A DNA stretch of 32,282 nt from a virus, in the IMG/VR virus record IMGVR_UViG_3300048091_000072, positions 1 through 32,282 of that record; one strand, written 5' to 3'. This document shows positions 1,386 through 32,158 of this stretch, piece by piece. Numbering within the stretch: the stretch's first letter is position 1; every line of letters begins with the position of its first letter. Under the pieces are notes generated by a model. That model was not told the origin of the DNA and did not search any database. It saw nothing but the letters and a program-made list of their open reading frames with translations. The translations under genes were made by a program, and so were the position numbers.

Positions 1386-2783
1386 TCAGTCGCTCATAAT
1401 GACAATCTTGTGGGGATAGCCTGACGCTTCACCACTTAGAATTTCCCCGTTGAGGCGCACATTCAAATAGGGGCCTGACGCTTCGGCGCTTACGATCTCT
1501 CGAACGTCCGAACCTCCAAGCGTCACTCTCATACCAGTCTGATAGGTCGCAACGTTCGCTTTGCTCGAAGTCACCAGGAAAGATGCATTATGCCTACCTA
1601 CCCCACCATTCCAATTATCATCGGTAATATCGTAAGGCGTATTATTGGGTAGATTCTGAACATTTATTAAATATGCAACCGTAAAAATCGGCAGAATCAT
1701 ATAGAACAAGAAGGCCATTTTAGGAATTTTGTTTTGCCATGCTTTCTCTGTGTTTTCCTCTGGCGACATAAATGATTTTGAGTGCCTAAAGCGAGAAACT
1801 TTCCGCTCAACCAATAAATAGATTATCAAGCCCACAACAATAGATACCAAAGACACCAGAGTACCTAGACTTATAAAATCTTTTATCAGCGAATATCCTG
1901 AGAGAACTTCTCTAAGCCAAATCAAAATCGGATAATGGACAATGTATACAGGATAAGAAAGCTCTCCTATTAATCGATCAACCTTATTCTTTGCCGTATA
2001 CTTAAAGAGAACTGGCATCGCCATTGCAAAAAACAATACCCCCCATAAAGGAATATTCTTTTGCGCGAACGAAAGGAGGATAAGCGCGACCACACCATAA
2101 AGATAGTTTGGTTCGGATTCACTCCTTGACAGGTGGTATGCAAGAGCGCCAGCGCCAAAAAAAGCAAATGAGGAAGGGTAAAAAAAATAGTTGAATGAGT
2201 ACAGCTCAACTGGCCTTATGAAACTGGCTCCAGGGAATGGGAACTCTATTAATTTCAAGAATAATAGATACACAGCCCCAGCCAGTACGAAACCAAATGT
2301 CTTGATCTTACTCTTTAGAATGAAGGGCGCAACAAGATAAAACCCCAATTCCACAGCCAAAGACCATGCGGGGATATTCATTATTAGCCTGTTAGGATCC
2401 GCACACTCACCGCTGATGGTAACAATACAGAAGACATGGGACAGATCCTGCCCAACAATGAATAAATTCTGAAAAACATAAATTAACTTTGAAAGCGGAG
2501 TCAGCGAATCAAAGAAATTCGCTATCGCTGTATAGCCAACCGCTAGTGACAAGGCGATCCCAATATAATATGCCGGAAACAACCGAAGCACTCTGCTCTT
2601 GTAAAACTGAAAATTGCTAACAGTTTTATACTGCGCATTCAGCACCATCGCCATATAAAAACCGGAGATGATGAAGAAGAAATTAACTGCGTTCCATGCA
2701 CCTATCCCGCTCATGCCGAATACTGTTGTCCCAGCGTGCCCGGCGATAACAGAGAGCGCAAGAAAAAGCCTTAAAAGTCCCAT
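1386..2783 (-). CDS. Acyltransferase family 3 membrane protein, probable O-antigen acetylase
   Basis: A 465-residue integral membrane protein of the OafA/acyltransferase-3 family, which transfers acyl (usually acetyl) groups to surface polysaccharides. The N-terminal signature LRLFLALSVIAGH carries the conserved Arg5 and His16 and is followed by NFFFIISGF. About ten membrane segments occupy residues 1-370. Residues 370-465 form a hydrophilic tail containing DDNWNGGVGRH and repeated EASG motifs, probably periplasmic; it is not part of the core family fold. The start at 2783 has GGAAAG seven bases upstream. The gene is visibly richer in A+T than the tail genes and sits next to the attachment site, typical of a lysogenic-conversion cargo gene. 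The most likely role is O-antigen modification that blocks reinfection. Confidence 0.8.
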   Translation of the reverse strand: MGLLRLFLALSVIAGHAGTTVFGMSGIGAWNAVNFFFIISGFYMAMVLNAQYKTVSNFQFYKSRVLRLFPAYYIGIALSLAVGYTAIANFFDSLTPLSKLIYVFQNLFIVGQDLSHVFCIVTISGECADPNRLIMNIPAWSLAVELGFYLVAPFILKSKIKTFGFVLAGAVYLLFLKLIEFPFPGASFIRPVELYSFNYFFYPSSFAFFGAGALAYHLSRSESEPNYLYGVVALILLSFAQKNIPLWGVLFFAMAMPVLFKYTAKNKVDRLIGELSYPVYIVHYPILIWLREVLSGYSLIKDFISLGTLVSLVSIVVGLIIYLLVERKVSRFRHSKSFMSPEENTEKAWQNKIPKMAFLFYMILPIFTVAYLINVQNLPNNTPYDITDDNWNGGVGRHNASFLVTSSKANVATYQTGMRVTLGGSDVREIVSAEASGPYLNVRLNGEILSGEASGYPHKIVIMSD

Positions 2784-3848: not shown

Positions 3849-3885
3849 TTTAAAACTTTAAACGAAGCATAAGGACGTGGGCCGC

Positions 3886-5034
3886 ATGACAAGCAACAAC
3901 GTTAAATACATCCGCGGACTCGATGGCCTACGTGCAATATCGGTTATTTTAGTAATTCTCTTCCATTACTCCAGCTATTTCCCTGGAGCTTTTAGCTCTT
4001 CGTACTCCCTGCTTCCTGCAATTGGAAAAGCACTTTCAATCGGCTGGATTGGCGTAGATATATTTTTTGTTATTTCTGGATTTCTAATCACAACGATGCT
4101 GATTAGAAATCCAATAAAGTCCACAAAAGAATATCTCACTTTCATACAGCGTCGCGCAAAGCGCTTGCTACCTGCATATTTCTGCTGCGTCGTTGTTATT
4201 TTGTTAGGAGCCACATTCATCTATCCAGACGCAAAGATTATCAGCAATCAATATCTACTCTGGACCATGTCATCAAACATATCTACGCTATTTGGTGATA
4301 GGTCGGCATTGGGCGGAATACACTTTTCAATGTTTCATTTTTGGTCCTTGGCGCTTGAGTGGCAATTCTATATCACCTTTCCACTGGCACTAACACGAAT
4401 TAAATCACCTCGTACAGCAGCATTGATAGCAATCGCGCTTGCACTTGTGTCCAGGGTAATCTTGATATATTTCAGCCCTTTAAATTATGACAACGCGATT
4501 TATTCATTTACGTTTTGCAGAGGTGATGCGTTGGCGGCGGGGGTATTCCTGGCAACATTATCGCCATCAAAGAGCGCCCTTAAAACTTATTTAGTCGGCG
4601 CTCTAGGCGTTTTTTTGTTTACCGCCATGCTTTTCGCACTTGCAATTAGCAACATCCCATTCAAAGCGACTCTTTGGCTGCAAACAGTTGGATATACCGC
4701 GATCGCGATTTCAATTGGAATGTTCATCTACTTTGTACTAAATTACGCGAACGAATCATCGACAATCAGGCTACTTGAACTTCCGGCAATAACCGCTATC
4801 GGCCGTGCTAGCTATAGCCTCTATATATGGCATCTTCCGTTTTATCCAATTATCGTAGCCAAATCCAGGGTGCTTTTCTCTGATCCACAAAGCCAACTTA
4901 TCTTCTCAGTCGGAGTCGCAACAGCTACCACTTGGATTTTAGGCGCGCTGTCGTACAAATATATTGAGTCAAAATTCATGTATTCAAGAGTTAGTGCAAT
5001 CTCGAGCAGTGAGGAAAAAATAGCGAGGATTTAA
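3886..5034 (+). CDS. Acyltransferase family 3 membrane protein, second O-antigen modification gene
   Basis: A 382-residue OafA-like acyltransferase. The N-terminal signature YIRGLDGLRAISVILVILFH includes Arg16 and His27, followed by GWIGVDIFFVISGFLIT, both diagnostic for the family; about ten membrane segments follow. There is no C-terminal SGNH esterase domain, so this is the short form. ATG 3886 is preferred to GTG 3877 because AAGGA at 3871-3875 is too close to the latter. The gene is A+T-rich and reversed relative to the tail operon. It ends two bases from the fibre-assembly gene stop (5036) and has its own candidate promoter, so it is a cargo gene inserted between the tail-fibre and endolysin genes. 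It shares the family, but little direct similarity, with the acyltransferase at 1386-2783. Confidence 0.85.
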   Translation: MTSNNVKYIRGLDGLRAISVILVILFHYSSYFPGAFSSSYSLLPAIGKALSIGWIGVDIFFVISGFLITTMLIRNPIKSTKEYLTFIQRRAKRLLPAYFCCVVVILLGATFIYPDAKIISNQYLLWTMSSNISTLFGDRSALGGIHFSMFHFWSLALEWQFYITFPLALTRIKSPRTAALIAIALALVSRVILIYFSPLNYDNAIYSFTFCRGDALAAGVFLATLSPSKSALKTYLVGALGVFLFTAMLFALAISNIPFKATLWLQTVGYTAIAISIGMFIYFVLNYANESSTIRLLELPAITAIGRASYSLYIWHLPFYPIIVAKSRVLFSDPQSQLIFSVGVATATTWILGALSYKYIESKFMYSRVSAISSSEEKIARI

Positions 5035-22730: not shown

Positions 22731-23438
22731 TTACGATTGAGGGAGATCTGGGAACCGGATTGCGATTGCAGCCGTGCGTTCCTCTTTGGTACCGCCGATT
22801 TTTCCTTTCGGGGCCCCGCCCCCACCACCTGCACCGCCGGCCCCGCCGCCCGATGCCTTGCTACCCGCGATCAACGGCGCGAACGCCGCGTCATTCGCGA
22901 TTTCTGATTTCAACTCGTCCAGCGTTGCCGCCGAGAGCTTGCCCTGTGCGTCGAGGACGACCACAACAGGCTTCCCATCGCGCTGCTCGACGCTCAGACG
23001 GCGCTCGATGTGCGGCAACAGGGCTTTTGCGCTGCCTTGCACTGCCAGTGCAGACGCGATGTCAGTAGCGGTACGACCGACAGTCAGATCCCGGATCTGC
23101 CCGCTCAGCGTTCCACGCTCCTGTTCCAACATGCCGTTCAGCTCAGCTTCGCGGCGGGTAAATTTTTCAGTCCAAGAGCGTTCGAGCTCTTCGACGTTGC
23201 CGGACTTGCGAGCGGCTTCTTCACGCTCAAGGCGCGCTGCATCTTCAGCTTCGCGCGCCTTCTTCTCGGCGGCTTTCTTCTCGCCGAGCAGCTCATCAAC
23301 CTTGGCCTTCAGGCCGGATACATCTTCTTGCTGCGGCAGACCTTCAATGCCGAGTACGAACTTGCCGTCCTTCTCGGTGTAAAGAGCGCGCACGGCTTCA
23401 TCTACCCCTTCCAGGGTATCCAGTTGGAATTTCAGCAT
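22731..23438 (-). CDS. Capsid scaffolding protein
   Basis: A 235-residue protein immediately upstream of the capsid gene. The N-terminal 40 residues form a small globular part (LDTLEGVDEAVRALYTEKDG). Residues 45-110 are a highly charged coiled coil (KKAAEKKAREAEDAARLER). The C-terminal region has a helical segment (TATDIASALAVQGSAKAL), a Gly/Ala-rich stretch of about 25 residues and a basic end (PKGKIGGTKEER) suited to capsid binding. This layout is typical of phage scaffold proteins that organise coat assembly and leave before packaging. GGGAG lies upstream of ATG. Confidence 0.85.
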   Translation of the reverse strand: MLKFQLDTLEGVDEAVRALYTEKDGKFVLGIEGLPQQEDVSGLKAKVDELLGEKKAAEKKAREAEDAARLEREEAARKSGNVEELERSWTEKFTRREAELNGMLEQERGTLSGQIRDLTVGRTATDIASALAVQGSAKALLPHIERRLSVEQRDGKPVVVVLDAQGKLSAATLDELKSEIANDAAFAPLIAGSKASGGGAGGAGGGGGAPKGKIGGTKEERTAAIAIRFPDLPQS

Positions 23439-23462
23439 TGGTTGTCTCCCAGAGACTTATGT

Positions 23463-23477
23463 GCAGGCCCTGCCTGC
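23463..23477. other. Short hairpin before the scaffold gene
   Basis: 6-bp stem GCAGGC / GCCTGC with a CCT loop, lying between the scaffold ribosome site and the divergent plus-strand cargo gene. It is one more of the hairpins found in nearly every larger gap of this operon. Confidence 0.4.
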
Positions 23478-23537
23478 GGGTTTTGCCTGTTAAAAGGCGA
23501 TGTTGGAGAGGAATTTTCCTAAAAGGAGCAAAATGCC

Positions 23538-23566
23538 TTGAAGGAGTGCTCATGGAGCGGTATATT
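23538..23566 (+). promoter_or_regulatory. Sigma-70-type promoter of the plus-strand gene at 23620
   Basis: TTGAAG (-35, 23538-23543) and TATATT (-10, 23561-23566) with an ideal 17-bp spacer. It is placed 54 bases upstream of a start with a perfect ribosome binding site. This is the best promoter-like sequence seen in the window. Confidence 0.7.
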
Positions 23567-23575
23567 TTACTCACT

Positions 23576-23593
23576 GAGCGAAATAATTCGCTC
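23576..23593. promoter_or_regulatory. Palindromic operator next to the cargo-gene promoter
   Basis: GAGCGAA / TTCGCTC 7-bp inverted repeat with a four-base centre (ATAA), beginning ten bases after the -10 element and covering the probable transcription start. A related half-site GGAGCG lies in the spacer at 23554-23559. The arrangement suggests repression by a dimeric regulator, possibly the gene product itself. Confidence 0.55.
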
Positions 23594-23619
23594 CTTAAGC
23601 GACCCATAGGAGGTCAAAG

Positions 23620-24216
23620 ATGCAAAACCATCAGGTCATTTATGATGCGAACAAGAAACCACTTTTCGTCGTCATCCCCTACGACGACGAATACAAACGG
23701 GCGTTCGGGATTGAGCCATCGTTGAATACGCTGAGCGCTACGCACGGAATCCCGCTGACGATTACTCTCCCAAACGCCGGAGCTGGTGCAACCATCGACC
23801 TCCCTCGATTCGTCGAATACTGGGTGCGCTGTGGAATCCAAAGCCTTCCGATCAATAAGCGGGCTAAACCGCTTCGTGAGTTCGAAGGTCGGGAGCGGTT
23901 CTCGCTCGAGGCTCTGATTCGGACCTGCTTCATCAATGAGCCGTACCGGAACACGATGCAGGCGGTCAACGAGGTCACCGACCAGTTGATCAGTACCGGT
24001 CTGTTTCGCGAGGTACGCTTCAACCAGGCACAATTGATGCCTGGAATAATCTTCGATCGCGAGCAGGCCATCTTGCAGGCAGCGATCCAACCGTACTCGC
24101 GGACAGTGAACTGCCTCGAAATCGTTTATGAAAAGGCAGTCGAGTTCTGTAACCAGCATCCGACACCGAAAGAAAAAAAAATCGACTCCCAGTGGTTCAA
24201 TCGAGATCGTTCTTGA
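23620..24216 (+). CDS. Plus-strand cargo gene of unknown function (Phd-like N-terminus)
   Basis: A 198-residue protein opposite to the surrounding head genes. The start has a perfect AGGAGGT six bases upstream and its own promoter and palindrome. The first 30 residues (HQVIYDANKKPLFVVIPYDDEYKRAF) resemble the start of Phd/YefM-type antitoxin domains (VIYDANGKPxxVVIPxxEY). The remainder is helical without a recognised motif; FSLEALIRTCFINEPYRNTMQAVNEV could be a DNA- or protein-binding helical unit. It has nine consecutive A near its 3' end (24173-24181). It could be a prophage regulator, antitoxin or anti-phage factor expressed in the lysogen. The family is not recognised and the role is open. 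Confidence 0.8.
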   Translation: MQNHQVIYDANKKPLFVVIPYDDEYKRAFGIEPSLNTLSATHGIPLTITLPNAGAGATIDLPRFVEYWVRCGIQSLPINKRAKPLREFEGRERFSLEALIRTCFINEPYRNTMQAVNEVTDQLISTGLFREVRFNQAQLMPGIIFDREQAILQAAIQPYSRTVNCLEIVYEKAVEFCNQHPTPKEKKIDSQWFNRDRS

Positions 24217-24224
24217 CCCCTTGA

Positions 24225-24252
24225 GGCGGGGTGTTGCTGACCAACCCCCGCC
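24225..24252. terminator. Strong hairpin between convergent genes
   Basis: Stem GGCGGGG-GTTG / CAAC-CCCCGCC with one bulged T and a five-base loop, in the 45-base gap between the plus-strand cargo gene (stop 24216) and the minus-strand head gene (stop 24262). There is no U tract, but its strength and place suggest a bidirectional transcription block or mRNA end. Confidence 0.5.
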
Positions 24253-24261
24253 GCTTGGCTT

Positions 24262-25347
24262 TCAAAGACCCGCGTTGTTGAAAGCAAGCGGTTCGAGTTT
24301 CTTCATTTCTACTAGCGTCAGCGGCGAAAAATTGCGATCAAGCTGCAGTTCTGCAAAGCGCTCGACACTCAACCCTCCTTCGCGGAACAACTTCGCCCGA
24401 ATCGGGCCGATAGCCCTGTCTTGAAACGCCGCCGGCTGCTGCTTGAGCCAGTCGTAGTAGCTGAGGTCCGCCCTCACCTGCTGCGCACCGCTGTCGCCGA
24501 TGGATGCCCGAGTCGCGCCCTCGGCGAATAGCGCGCTGAAGCGAGTCACCGCCACCACCGTCGAACGGCAGTTGATGTGGATCGGCGGCCTCGGCCCCTC
24601 GGTCAGCTTGAACCGACGCTTGTCGAGCGTCCGGCACTGGCTGGTCGTCTTTGAATCCAGCGTACTGACCCACTCCACCGACGGCACGACATCGGAGTTC
24701 GCTTTCAGCGTTTCCATGCGTGCCTGGGTGGCAACGTGCTGCACCGCCGTTCGCACGATGGCGCCAGCGTTGCGGTTGGTCGTGGCCAAGATGCCGTCGT
24801 TGTACTGCAGCGCCTTGGTGCCGCGAATTTTCTTGATGATCTGGAAGTTGGTCTGGCCTTCGAAGAAGCCCTGCCGGATCGCGCCTGTGAGGCGTTGTCG
24901 CTCCATGGCGGTGAAACCATCAATGAACGACTTGAGCAGCTTCCCGCCGTCGGCACCGCGCACACTGAGCGGGTTTGTGAGGATTGCCGCCCTGATTGCT
25001 GCAGCACCTGGCACCGCCGCATCGAACGACACACCTACCGGTGCCGCCCGGGTCAGGCTGGTTGCTTCAAATTCGGCCTCGTAGTTGGCGATATCCACCA
25101 GGTCGAGGTTCAGCTTCTCGCTGTACCGATCGAAGATGCCCAGCAGCAGACTATCAACCTCGCTCAGCAGCCGCTCCAGGCGGGCGACGGTGTAATCCGT
25201 CAGATCCGCCCGGGTCAGCCGCTCACGAATCGAGCGGTCGATCTCCTTGAGGAAAGGTGCGAACTTCGCCACCTCCCCCGACTTCAGTTGCTCAAGGAAG
25301 ACGGCGTGCCGAATCGTGGCATCAAGGATCGCTTGGTTTGCCGCCAT
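24262..25347 (-). CDS. Phage head morphogenesis protein (SPP1 gp7 / Mu F-like)
   Basis: A 361-residue minor head protein. The C-terminal part holds the SPP1 gp7/Mu gpF signature: TSQCRTLDKRRFKLTEGPRPPIHINCRS (Cys, DKR, PP-x-H-x-NCRS). The N-terminal 200 residues are helical with TNFQIIKKIRGT before it, as usual. Such proteins ride on the portal and enter the procapsid. It overlaps the end of the portal gene by 26 bases, and GAGG lies upstream of the start. The C-terminal 80 residues include SYYDWLKQQPAAFQDRAIGP, also common in the family. Confidence 0.9.
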   Translation of the reverse strand: MAANQAILDATIRHAVFLEQLKSGEVAKFAPFLKEIDRSIRERLTRADLTDYTVARLERLLSEVDSLLLGIFDRYSEKLNLDLVDIANYEAEFEATSLTRAAPVGVSFDAAVPGAAAIRAAILTNPLSVRGADGGKLLKSFIDGFTAMERQRLTGAIRQGFFEGQTNFQIIKKIRGTKALQYNDGILATTNRNAGAIVRTAVQHVATQARMETLKANSDVVPSVEWVSTLDSKTTSQCRTLDKRRFKLTEGPRPPIHINCRSTVVAVTRFSALFAEGATRASIGDSGAQQVRADLSYYDWLKQQPAAFQDRAIGPIRAKLFREGGLSVERFAELQLDRNFSPLTLVEMKKLEPLAFNNAGL

Positions 25348-28563: not shown

Positions 28564-29187
28564 TCAGGCCGACTTGAGCAGACAGGTTCCGCAGGCCCTC
28601 GATATGTTCAATTTCCCTACCTCGGCAGGATTGTTTGCAGCGTCCACCAGTTCTTGAACTGCCGGGCTTGCACCATAGCGCCGGACCACACCGACGAACT
28701 CTTCAACGTCGTGTCCGCGCATCTCAAGCTTGGGCAGTCCTTCCTGGGTGAACGCTGGCTGACCGTACTTATCGGTCGCTTGGGCGATGTGATAGAGCTC
28801 ATGTTCGATGAGGGCGCAGAAATCAGCGTCGGAGCAGTCGGCGCAGTAGTCGGCAGCCAGAGTGATGATGTAGGCCGGCACATCGCCGAACCAATCGCGC
28901 ATCTGCTGTTCCATCCGGGCCTTCTGCCAGCCACCAGCACGGAACGCCACCTGTTCGGCCTGTCCCACCACCGTACGCCCCTTCTTCGTGAAGGCAGCAG
29001 ACGCCCACATCACACGAATGTCCGCGTCGATCAGATGGGCGTGATCTTCATTGTGAATGCTGCCGGTGTCAGCAAGGATCTGGGACTGCAGCCACTCCCA
29101 CACCTCGGGAGCCGGGGTCAGGCGAATACCAAAGTCCGATTGCTCTGATAATTCGATAAGCGACAAGGGAGGGTATGGCCTATCCAT
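28564..29187 (-). CDS. Putative phage metallopeptidase
   Basis: A 207-residue protein of the putative phage metallopeptidase family. The zinc motif HELYHIAQ gives His129, Glu130 and His133. Upstream AFTKKGRTVVGQAEQV and downstream PKLEMRGHDVEEFVGVVRRYG are family hallmarks, the latter probably supplying the third ligand. The C-terminus has a CGTC pair. It sits directly upstream of terS, as in many Pseudomonas and Burkholderia prophages. The substrate is unknown; possibilities are virion maturation or a host factor. AGGGTG lies before ATG. Confidence 0.82.
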   Translation of the reverse strand: MDRPYPPLSLIELSEQSDFGIRLTPAPEVWEWLQSQILADTGSIHNEDHAHLIDADIRVMWASAAFTKKGRTVVGQAEQVAFRAGGWQKARMEQQMRDWFGDVPAYIITLAADYCADCSDADFCALIEHELYHIAQATDKYGQPAFTQEGLPKLEMRGHDVEEFVGVVRRYGASPAVQELVDAANNPAEVGKLNISRACGTCLLKSA

Positions 29188-31831: not shown

Positions 31832-32014
31832 TTAAGTCGAATGATTGTTCGCGGAGGATTCCGCTTTCATGTCGCTCAAAGGCGATCGCTCGAGGCTCGT
31901 GGCCTTCTCATGATTCAACGTCCCGCATCGGGAACATTTGATCTGGAGCTCGGTAAACTCACCCACGCGGGCGAGAAGTCTGTTGCATTTTCCACATCTG
32001 CATTCTTTCAACAT
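31832..32014 (-). CDS. com: Com-like zinc-ribbon translational regulator
   Basis: A 60-residue protein matching Mu Com: MLKECRCGKCNRLLARVGEF followed by LQIKCSRCGTLNHEKA, with two CxxC pairs (Cys6/Cys9 and Cys26/Cys29) forming a zinc ribbon. Mu Com binds the leader of mom mRNA, melts a stem-loop and permits translation of the DNA modification enzyme. The C-terminal 25 residues here are Ser/Asn-rich. ATG 32014 is preferred to an in-frame TTG at 32020. No mom is seen in the window; the gene directly downstream (31499-31819) is of another type. Confidence 0.85.
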   Translation of the reverse strand: MLKECRCGKCNRLLARVGEFTELQIKCSRCGTLNHEKATSLERSPLSDMKAESSANNHST

Positions 32015-32158
32015 CTGCAAGTCCGTTTGATTTTCTGCTAGGCTCCGCCCCGCTCGCGCGAGCAGTGAGGGCCTTGGCTGGCTTGCAGGCTCTATCTGCG
32101 ATCTGGCGTCTCTTTTGGGTGTTAGCGCACCCTCTGGAGTCGCCCTCTCTTTTTTCCG
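32015..32158. other. Com leader region up to the IS element
   Basis: G+C-rich non-coding sequence upstream of com. It includes a 12-bp perfect palindrome GCTCGCGCGAGC (32052-32063) and pyrimidine-rich tracts. No reliable promoter or gene is seen; the small minus-strand ORF running through it continues into the IS and is not a credible gene. Confidence 0.4.

Follow-up and report, generated by a model that had tools for sequence, protein, structure and literature searches.

A candidate antitoxin-derived autorepressor encoded by a moron among the head genes of a Pseudomonas siphoprophage

An inserted gene between the MuF and scaffold genes

The DNA analysed here (the window) is a stretch of 32,282 nucleotides of the IMG/VR virus record IMGVR_UViG_3300048091_000072. 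Its head genes are all read from the minus strand and comprise a gene at the TerS position (phrog_546), TerL, a gene at the portal position (named 'portal' from its position and its homology to relatives) and the genes of a MuF-like protein, the scaffold and the major capsid protein. Between head genes, an earlier note made from the sequence alone had placed a plus-strand gene for a 198-residue protein, and such a gene is indeed found there, flanked by the MuF and scaffold genes:

24262-25347, minus strand: MuF-like head gene, flanking the moron gene
22731-23438, minus strand: scaffold gene, flanking the moron gene on the other side
23620-24216, plus strand: 198-aa protein P0001 of the phrog_20342 family (ATG at 23620, TGA at 24216), antisense to the structural operon
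23477-24261, no strand: whole inserted moron, 785 bp, delimited by empty sites in relatives and a GC shift

The open reading frame is a real gene under purifying selection, with a dN/dS of about 0.09 (range 0.08-0.17; 0.08-0.10 between the window gene and orthologues 87-91% identical to it). P0001 matches phrog_20342, a family of unknown function in PHROGs v4, over its full length (E 3.7e-76), and searches with P0001 in Pfam, NCBIfam and PDB sequences gave nothing meaningful. Pseudomonas prophages contain relatives with 43-91% identity, and these lie in the same slot wherever the slot is readable. The family model matches 15 of 398 Pseudomonas genomes, several of these matches being partial or of another architecture, and a relative of the capsid protein is present in 30 of 398. 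With tblastn, P0001 had no match in named phages or in plasmids, nor had the 155-aa form of the family in named phages, and none of the papers found describes this cargo family.

The boundaries of the insert were read from two of the 30 genomes with a capsid relative, in which it is absent (L138 and L143; capsid 97-99% and MuF 90-95% identical). In both, the gap between the MuF and scaffold genes is 39 bp and the MuF stop directly meets the conserved CAGGCAGGGCCTGC leader of the scaffold gene, whereas in the window this leader lies beyond the moron gene; the insert therefore spans about 23477-24261. It holds one gene only, with MuF and scaffold on its flanks, and its GC content is 52.2% versus 60-61% in the flanking genes. 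Insertion between adjacent genes, own signals and a shifted GC content are the usual marks of morons and are seen, together with hotspots, in lambdoid phages and Burkholderia prophages (PMC2920897). Here, the 39-bp empty site shows that the neighbouring genes are adjacent in relatives, a promoter and operator of its own are apparent from sequence and conservation (see below), and the GC content is unlike that of the phage genes. Judged on sequence, the insert is a textbook example of a moron, and the place that it occupies between MuF and scaffold of Pseudomonas siphoprophages is a cargo hotspot.

Unrelated cargo occupies the same slot in L135, L137, L139 and L149, where it encodes proteins of 175-203 residues in sense or antisense orientation. 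Read by eye, these proteins start with apparent membrane (hydrophobic) segments. Membrane segments are common among superinfection-exclusion proteins, and the slot proteins of these four loci are candidates for this activity. In Pseudomonas phage PS-1 the slot holds a KilA-N-like protein (KilA-N by eye; 'transcriptional regulator' in the record), and no gene is annotated in it in Oceanospirillum phage GJ44 and Pseudomonas phage R656.

Promoter and operator-like palindromes of the moron gene

The signals surrounding the coding sequence are the following:

23538-23566, plus strand: sigma-70 type promoter TTGAAG-17-TATATT, from a promoter scan; kept in the seven closest relatives
23548-23558, no strand: operator-like site O1, GCTCATGGAGC, within the -35/-10 spacer
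23569-23579, no strand: operator-like site O2, ACTCACTGAGC, right after the -10 at the predicted start site, 21 bp from O1
23576-23593, no strand: palindrome GAGCGAA-ATAA-TTCGCTC (arms 23576-23582 and 23587-23593), composed of the right half of O2 and the left half of O3
23590-23600, no strand: operator-like site O3, GCTCCTTAAGC, degenerate, in the 5' leader, 21 bp from O2
23608-23614, plus strand: ribosome binding site AGGAGGT, 5 nt before the ATG
24225-24252 (about), plus strand: 3' hairpin, probable terminator without a clear T-run here, from folding against shuffles and from relatives

The promoter and the ribosome binding site are those described in the earlier note. TTGAAG-17-TATATT is the sole promoter-like match across 22-26 kb of the window, where 0.7 matches are expected by chance; the single match alone is thus at about chance level, although the element is conserved in relatives. 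The 3' hairpin is present (z = -2.6; 3 of 200 shuffles fold equally well), but the window has no clear T-run after it; a T6 follows the hairpin in the relatives L003 and L008. Rfam returned no RNA family match. In silico, the sequence supports an autonomous gene designed to be expressed separately from the late operon.

O1, O2 and O3 are GCTC-nnn-GAGC sites at a spacing of exactly 21 bp, with close relatives keeping only the GCTCCTT half of O3. The GAGCGAA/TTCGCTC palindrome previously taken for the operator is present, but as part of this array and not as a single site: taken by itself, it reaches only a marginal p of about 0.06 in a test with dinucleotide shuffles, and it was rejected as a stand-alone operator. 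It is a phase-shifted reading of the three sites. Paired changes preserve it in L002 (GAGTGAA..ATCACTC) and L004 (GGAGCA..TGCTCC). A pair of sites 21 or 22 bp apart is found in all nine clade members, including L006 and L040 (about 43-54% protein identity), which carry two perfect sites forming a dyad with 14-bp arms. When 2000 dinucleotide shuffles were made for each of the nine sequences, a pair at 21-22 bp arose once for the window sequence and never for the other clade sequences, figures that are descriptive because the motif was derived from the sequences tested.

Elsewhere in the window there is no second pair of sites 21-22 bp apart (at most one mismatch each), and in three host genomes operator pairs lie essentially at the gene's own promoter, with a few GC-rich matches in addition. 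Single sites with at most one mismatch number 31 in the window versus 23 expected, a count reached by 6 of 100 shuffles. With neither a clear site excess nor a second tandem pair in the window, a global regulon was rejected.

Different palindromes occupy this position in other clades, namely ATTGTA/TACAAT, TTTCGTTTA/TAAACGAAA and TTTATTTGGTTT/AAACCAAATAAA. Against shuffles these are significant in L068, L071, L056, L048 and L041, and the same test gave no significant dyad at the promoter of L046, L057, L063 and L042. Mapped on the protein tree, the operator type requires three changes, the minimum possible, an agreement that is partly expected from linkage.

Domains of P0001 and their kinship

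Two parts of the protein can be distinguished:

23620-23709, plus strand: N-terminal antitoxin-type beta-beta-alpha module, residues 1-30, from AF2 and outside profile matches
23743-24177, plus strand: C-terminal winged-helix-like domain, about residues 42-186, from two AF2 models and extended HicB antitoxins

AF2 was run on P0001 (pLDDT 79) and on a 155-aa relative (pLDDT 86), and the two models agree in architecture: a linker modelled with low confidence (about residues 31-42) separates a beta-beta-alpha N-module from a winged-helix-like domain. P0001 is thus predicted to join an antitoxin-type N-module to a winged-helix-like C-domain, a combination that is named by no library. Its neighbours in VIA-align are mostly winged-helix structures (MarR, PadR, ArsR, FoxO and pol III winged helices) with Z scores of only 4-5, which supports a common winged-helix arrangement rather than a family. 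Foldseek gave no match below E 0.1, and the BFVD fold search gave nothing. Both models make the new regulator suggested earlier plausible through their winged-helix-like C-domain, and neither predicted structure clearly matches a known virion protein.

The first residues had been compared with Phd-type antitoxins. Their antitoxin-like character is supported in silico but not the assignment to Phd proper: PhdYefM (PF02604) did not match P0001 at E<=10, nor did it appear when 42 family members were scanned at E<=0.5. The N-module resembles RelB-like of Pfam (best E 0.02). When 369 gammaproteobacterial genomes were searched with a profile, four matches besides the seed were obtained, all limited to the N-module and all in antitoxin-like ORFs adjoining a short ParE/RelE-type ORF. 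Three antitoxin-like proteins, each from a locus of its own or represented by a near-identical copy, were scanned with Pfam, which recognised HTH_3 in all of them and ParE_toxin in both toxins scanned beside these matches. The E values range from 2e-4 to 9e-4 per genome, with about 0.4 chance matches expected overall, and the matches are convincing because of the uniform ParE/RelE-type context. By these comparisons, the N-terminus of P0001 is closer to Xre-type antitoxins of ParE/RelE systems and to RelB-like than to Phd proper.

P0001 and the Xre-type antitoxins of ParE/RelE-type pairs have in common the N-terminal QFIxDxxGxPxFAVIPYxxY module and, likely, autoregulation. However, these antitoxins possess HTH_3 and a toxin neighbour, whereas P0001 has no Pfam match to HTH_3, is predicted to carry a winged-helix-like domain instead and lacks an adjacent toxin. 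Short palindromes over the own promoter and a beta-beta-alpha N-terminus are also features of Phd/YefM antitoxins, from which P0001 is set apart by the missing PhdYefM match, the lack of a Doc/YoeB partner and the extra winged-helix-like domain; moreover, the palindrome spacing is 12 bp for YefM (PMC4803016) versus 21-22 bp for the operator-like sites of P0001. A Pseudomonas protein encoded at L030 1486-1812, in which the N-module is fused to an Xre HTH and which has no obvious toxin neighbour, represents another apparently solitary antitoxin-like gene.

The C-domain of P0001 is also present on HicB-type proteins with HTH_26 in Pseudomonas prophages (L078-L085, L036-L039). In L079, such a protein is encoded directly downstream of a 69-aa HicA (HicA E 1.4e-12), and the leaders of several other extended-HicB loci encode the same HicA end. 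These extended HicB antitoxins (phrog_497 plus C-domain, e.g. L078-L085) resemble P0001 in their C-terminal domain and antisense placement, but differ in having a HicB plus HTH_26 N-terminus, in lying beside hicA (shown for L079) and in their location, which in related prophages is close to the holin/terminase junction. In L086-L100 the match is confined to the HicB-HTH part and does not include the C-domain. P0001 itself has neither the HicB N-terminal domain nor the HicA partner by which HicB antitoxins are recognised, and only the C-domain is common. The putative recognition helix of this domain (YxNTMQAxxxV) is nearly invariant across clades with different operators, and so it cannot set specificity alone. 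Either the N-module or the wing would determine specificity, or a conserved face of the C-domain would bind something other than DNA.

Candidate roles of P0001 and other observations in the window

We consider it likely that the moron gene encodes a solitary transcriptional autorepressor derived from an antitoxin. The self-repression that the earlier note had raised as possible is well supported in silico by the tandem operator-like sites on the gene's own promoter: P0001 probably binds this palindrome ladder and thereby limits its own expression. HicB and YefM antitoxins repress via palindromes, one of them overlapping the -10 (PMC11594946, PMC4803016), and the arrangement proposed for P0001 follows the same logic. 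Dimers of P0001 would occupy the short palindromes, which are separated by two helical turns, from a single side of the helix, and cooperative binding would deny RNA polymerase access to the -35/-10 and start-site region. In the lysogen, autorepression would thereby fix the amount of P0001 at a low level, independently of the phage late operon. We infer that the gene most likely serves to supply, at a steady level, an antitoxin-like regulator whose target belongs to the host or to a rival phage; the buffering of a ParE/RelE-type toxin would be one example. As there is no adjacent toxin, any partner would be encoded elsewhere.

It is possible, though we doubt it, that the main job of this solitary antitoxin is the neutralisation of a host or competitor toxin (anti-addiction or anti-abortive infection), with DNA binding reduced to the housekeeping autoregulation of type II modules. 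The N-module common to antitoxins of ParE/RelE-type pairs and the occurrence of the C-domain on HicB-type antitoxins, beside HicA in L079, are consistent with this role, and phages are described as acquiring antitoxins with which they counter TA systems (PMC11594946). However, no cognate toxin gene lies in the slot and none was identified in the window, and the constant C-domain is common to families with different toxins. If the antitoxin side were true, prophages would carry antidotes without toxins.

A wider scheme can be drawn for the autorepressor, which we regard as unlikely in its full extent. P0001 would belong to a family of cargo regulators in which antitoxin N-modules (Xre/ParE- or HicB-type) have been swapped onto one winged-helix-like domain and operator types have diversified, providing a second immunity-like or toxin-buffering circuit from one capsid-gene slot across phages with different structural modules.

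The existence of at least four operator types that track the protein tree, in one slot of phages whose portal, MuF and terminase genes differ, would fit a regulator of immunity or competition, in which the lineage-specific operators are heteroimmunity types and a resident copy represses incoming phages with the same module; the KilA-N-like regulator of phage PS-1 in this slot points the same way. Such a function appears improbable: the sole operator pair in the window is at the gene's own promoter, and since the sites were found at no essential phage promoter, a superinfecting phage under such repression would have nothing but its moron silenced.

The defence function put forward earlier is not supported, and an anti-phage effector is very improbable. 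The position in a cargo hotspot, where unrelated cargo of the same slot starts elsewhere with apparent membrane segments (by eye), would suit it, as would a weak match to PDC-S57 (E 0.0025), the sole one in PADLOC. However, this model matched one of four family members examined and not the three others, no catalytic or membrane domain was found, and the fold points to a regulator. In Pseudomonas, PDC-S57 matches part of mostly long ORFs. Finally, a minor virion or assembly protein, as the location between head genes might suggest, is extremely improbable and was rejected on the opposite strand, the own promoter and the empty sites in near-identical phages, and no virion match was obtained in PHROGs, PDB or BFVD.

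With autorepression as the preferred reading, an unnamed phage family becomes a testable regulator with mapped operator candidates. Moreover, one domain is common to solitary prophage regulators and HicB-type antitoxins, and the interval from MuF to scaffold in Pseudomonas prophages is identified as a cargo hotspot.

Several other features of the window were recorded. On the minus strand, the scaffold leader contains two hairpins, GCAGGCAGGGCCTGC at 23444-23456 and GTCTC-TGG-GAGAC at 23463-23477, the second of which holds the likely Shine-Dalgarno. Paired changes preserve both of them in other clades (GTTCCCCTGGAAC and AGAGGCCCGGCCTCT in L062), suggesting a translational control element for the scaffold. 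At 31835-32020 (minus strand) lies a gene for a Com-like zinc-ribbon translational regulator (phrog_6417, E 4e-21), and no mom gene was recognised in the window. The 207-aa protein encoded at 28564-29187 (minus strand) falls into phrog_513, 'transposase', but contains a HELYH (HExxH-type) motif; it is more like a metallopeptidase, and the label is probably wrong. Near the tail end, 1386-2783 (minus strand) and 3877-5034 (plus strand) encode, by eye, acyltransferase-3 (O-antigen acetylase-like) lookalikes, which are possible lysogenic conversion genes.
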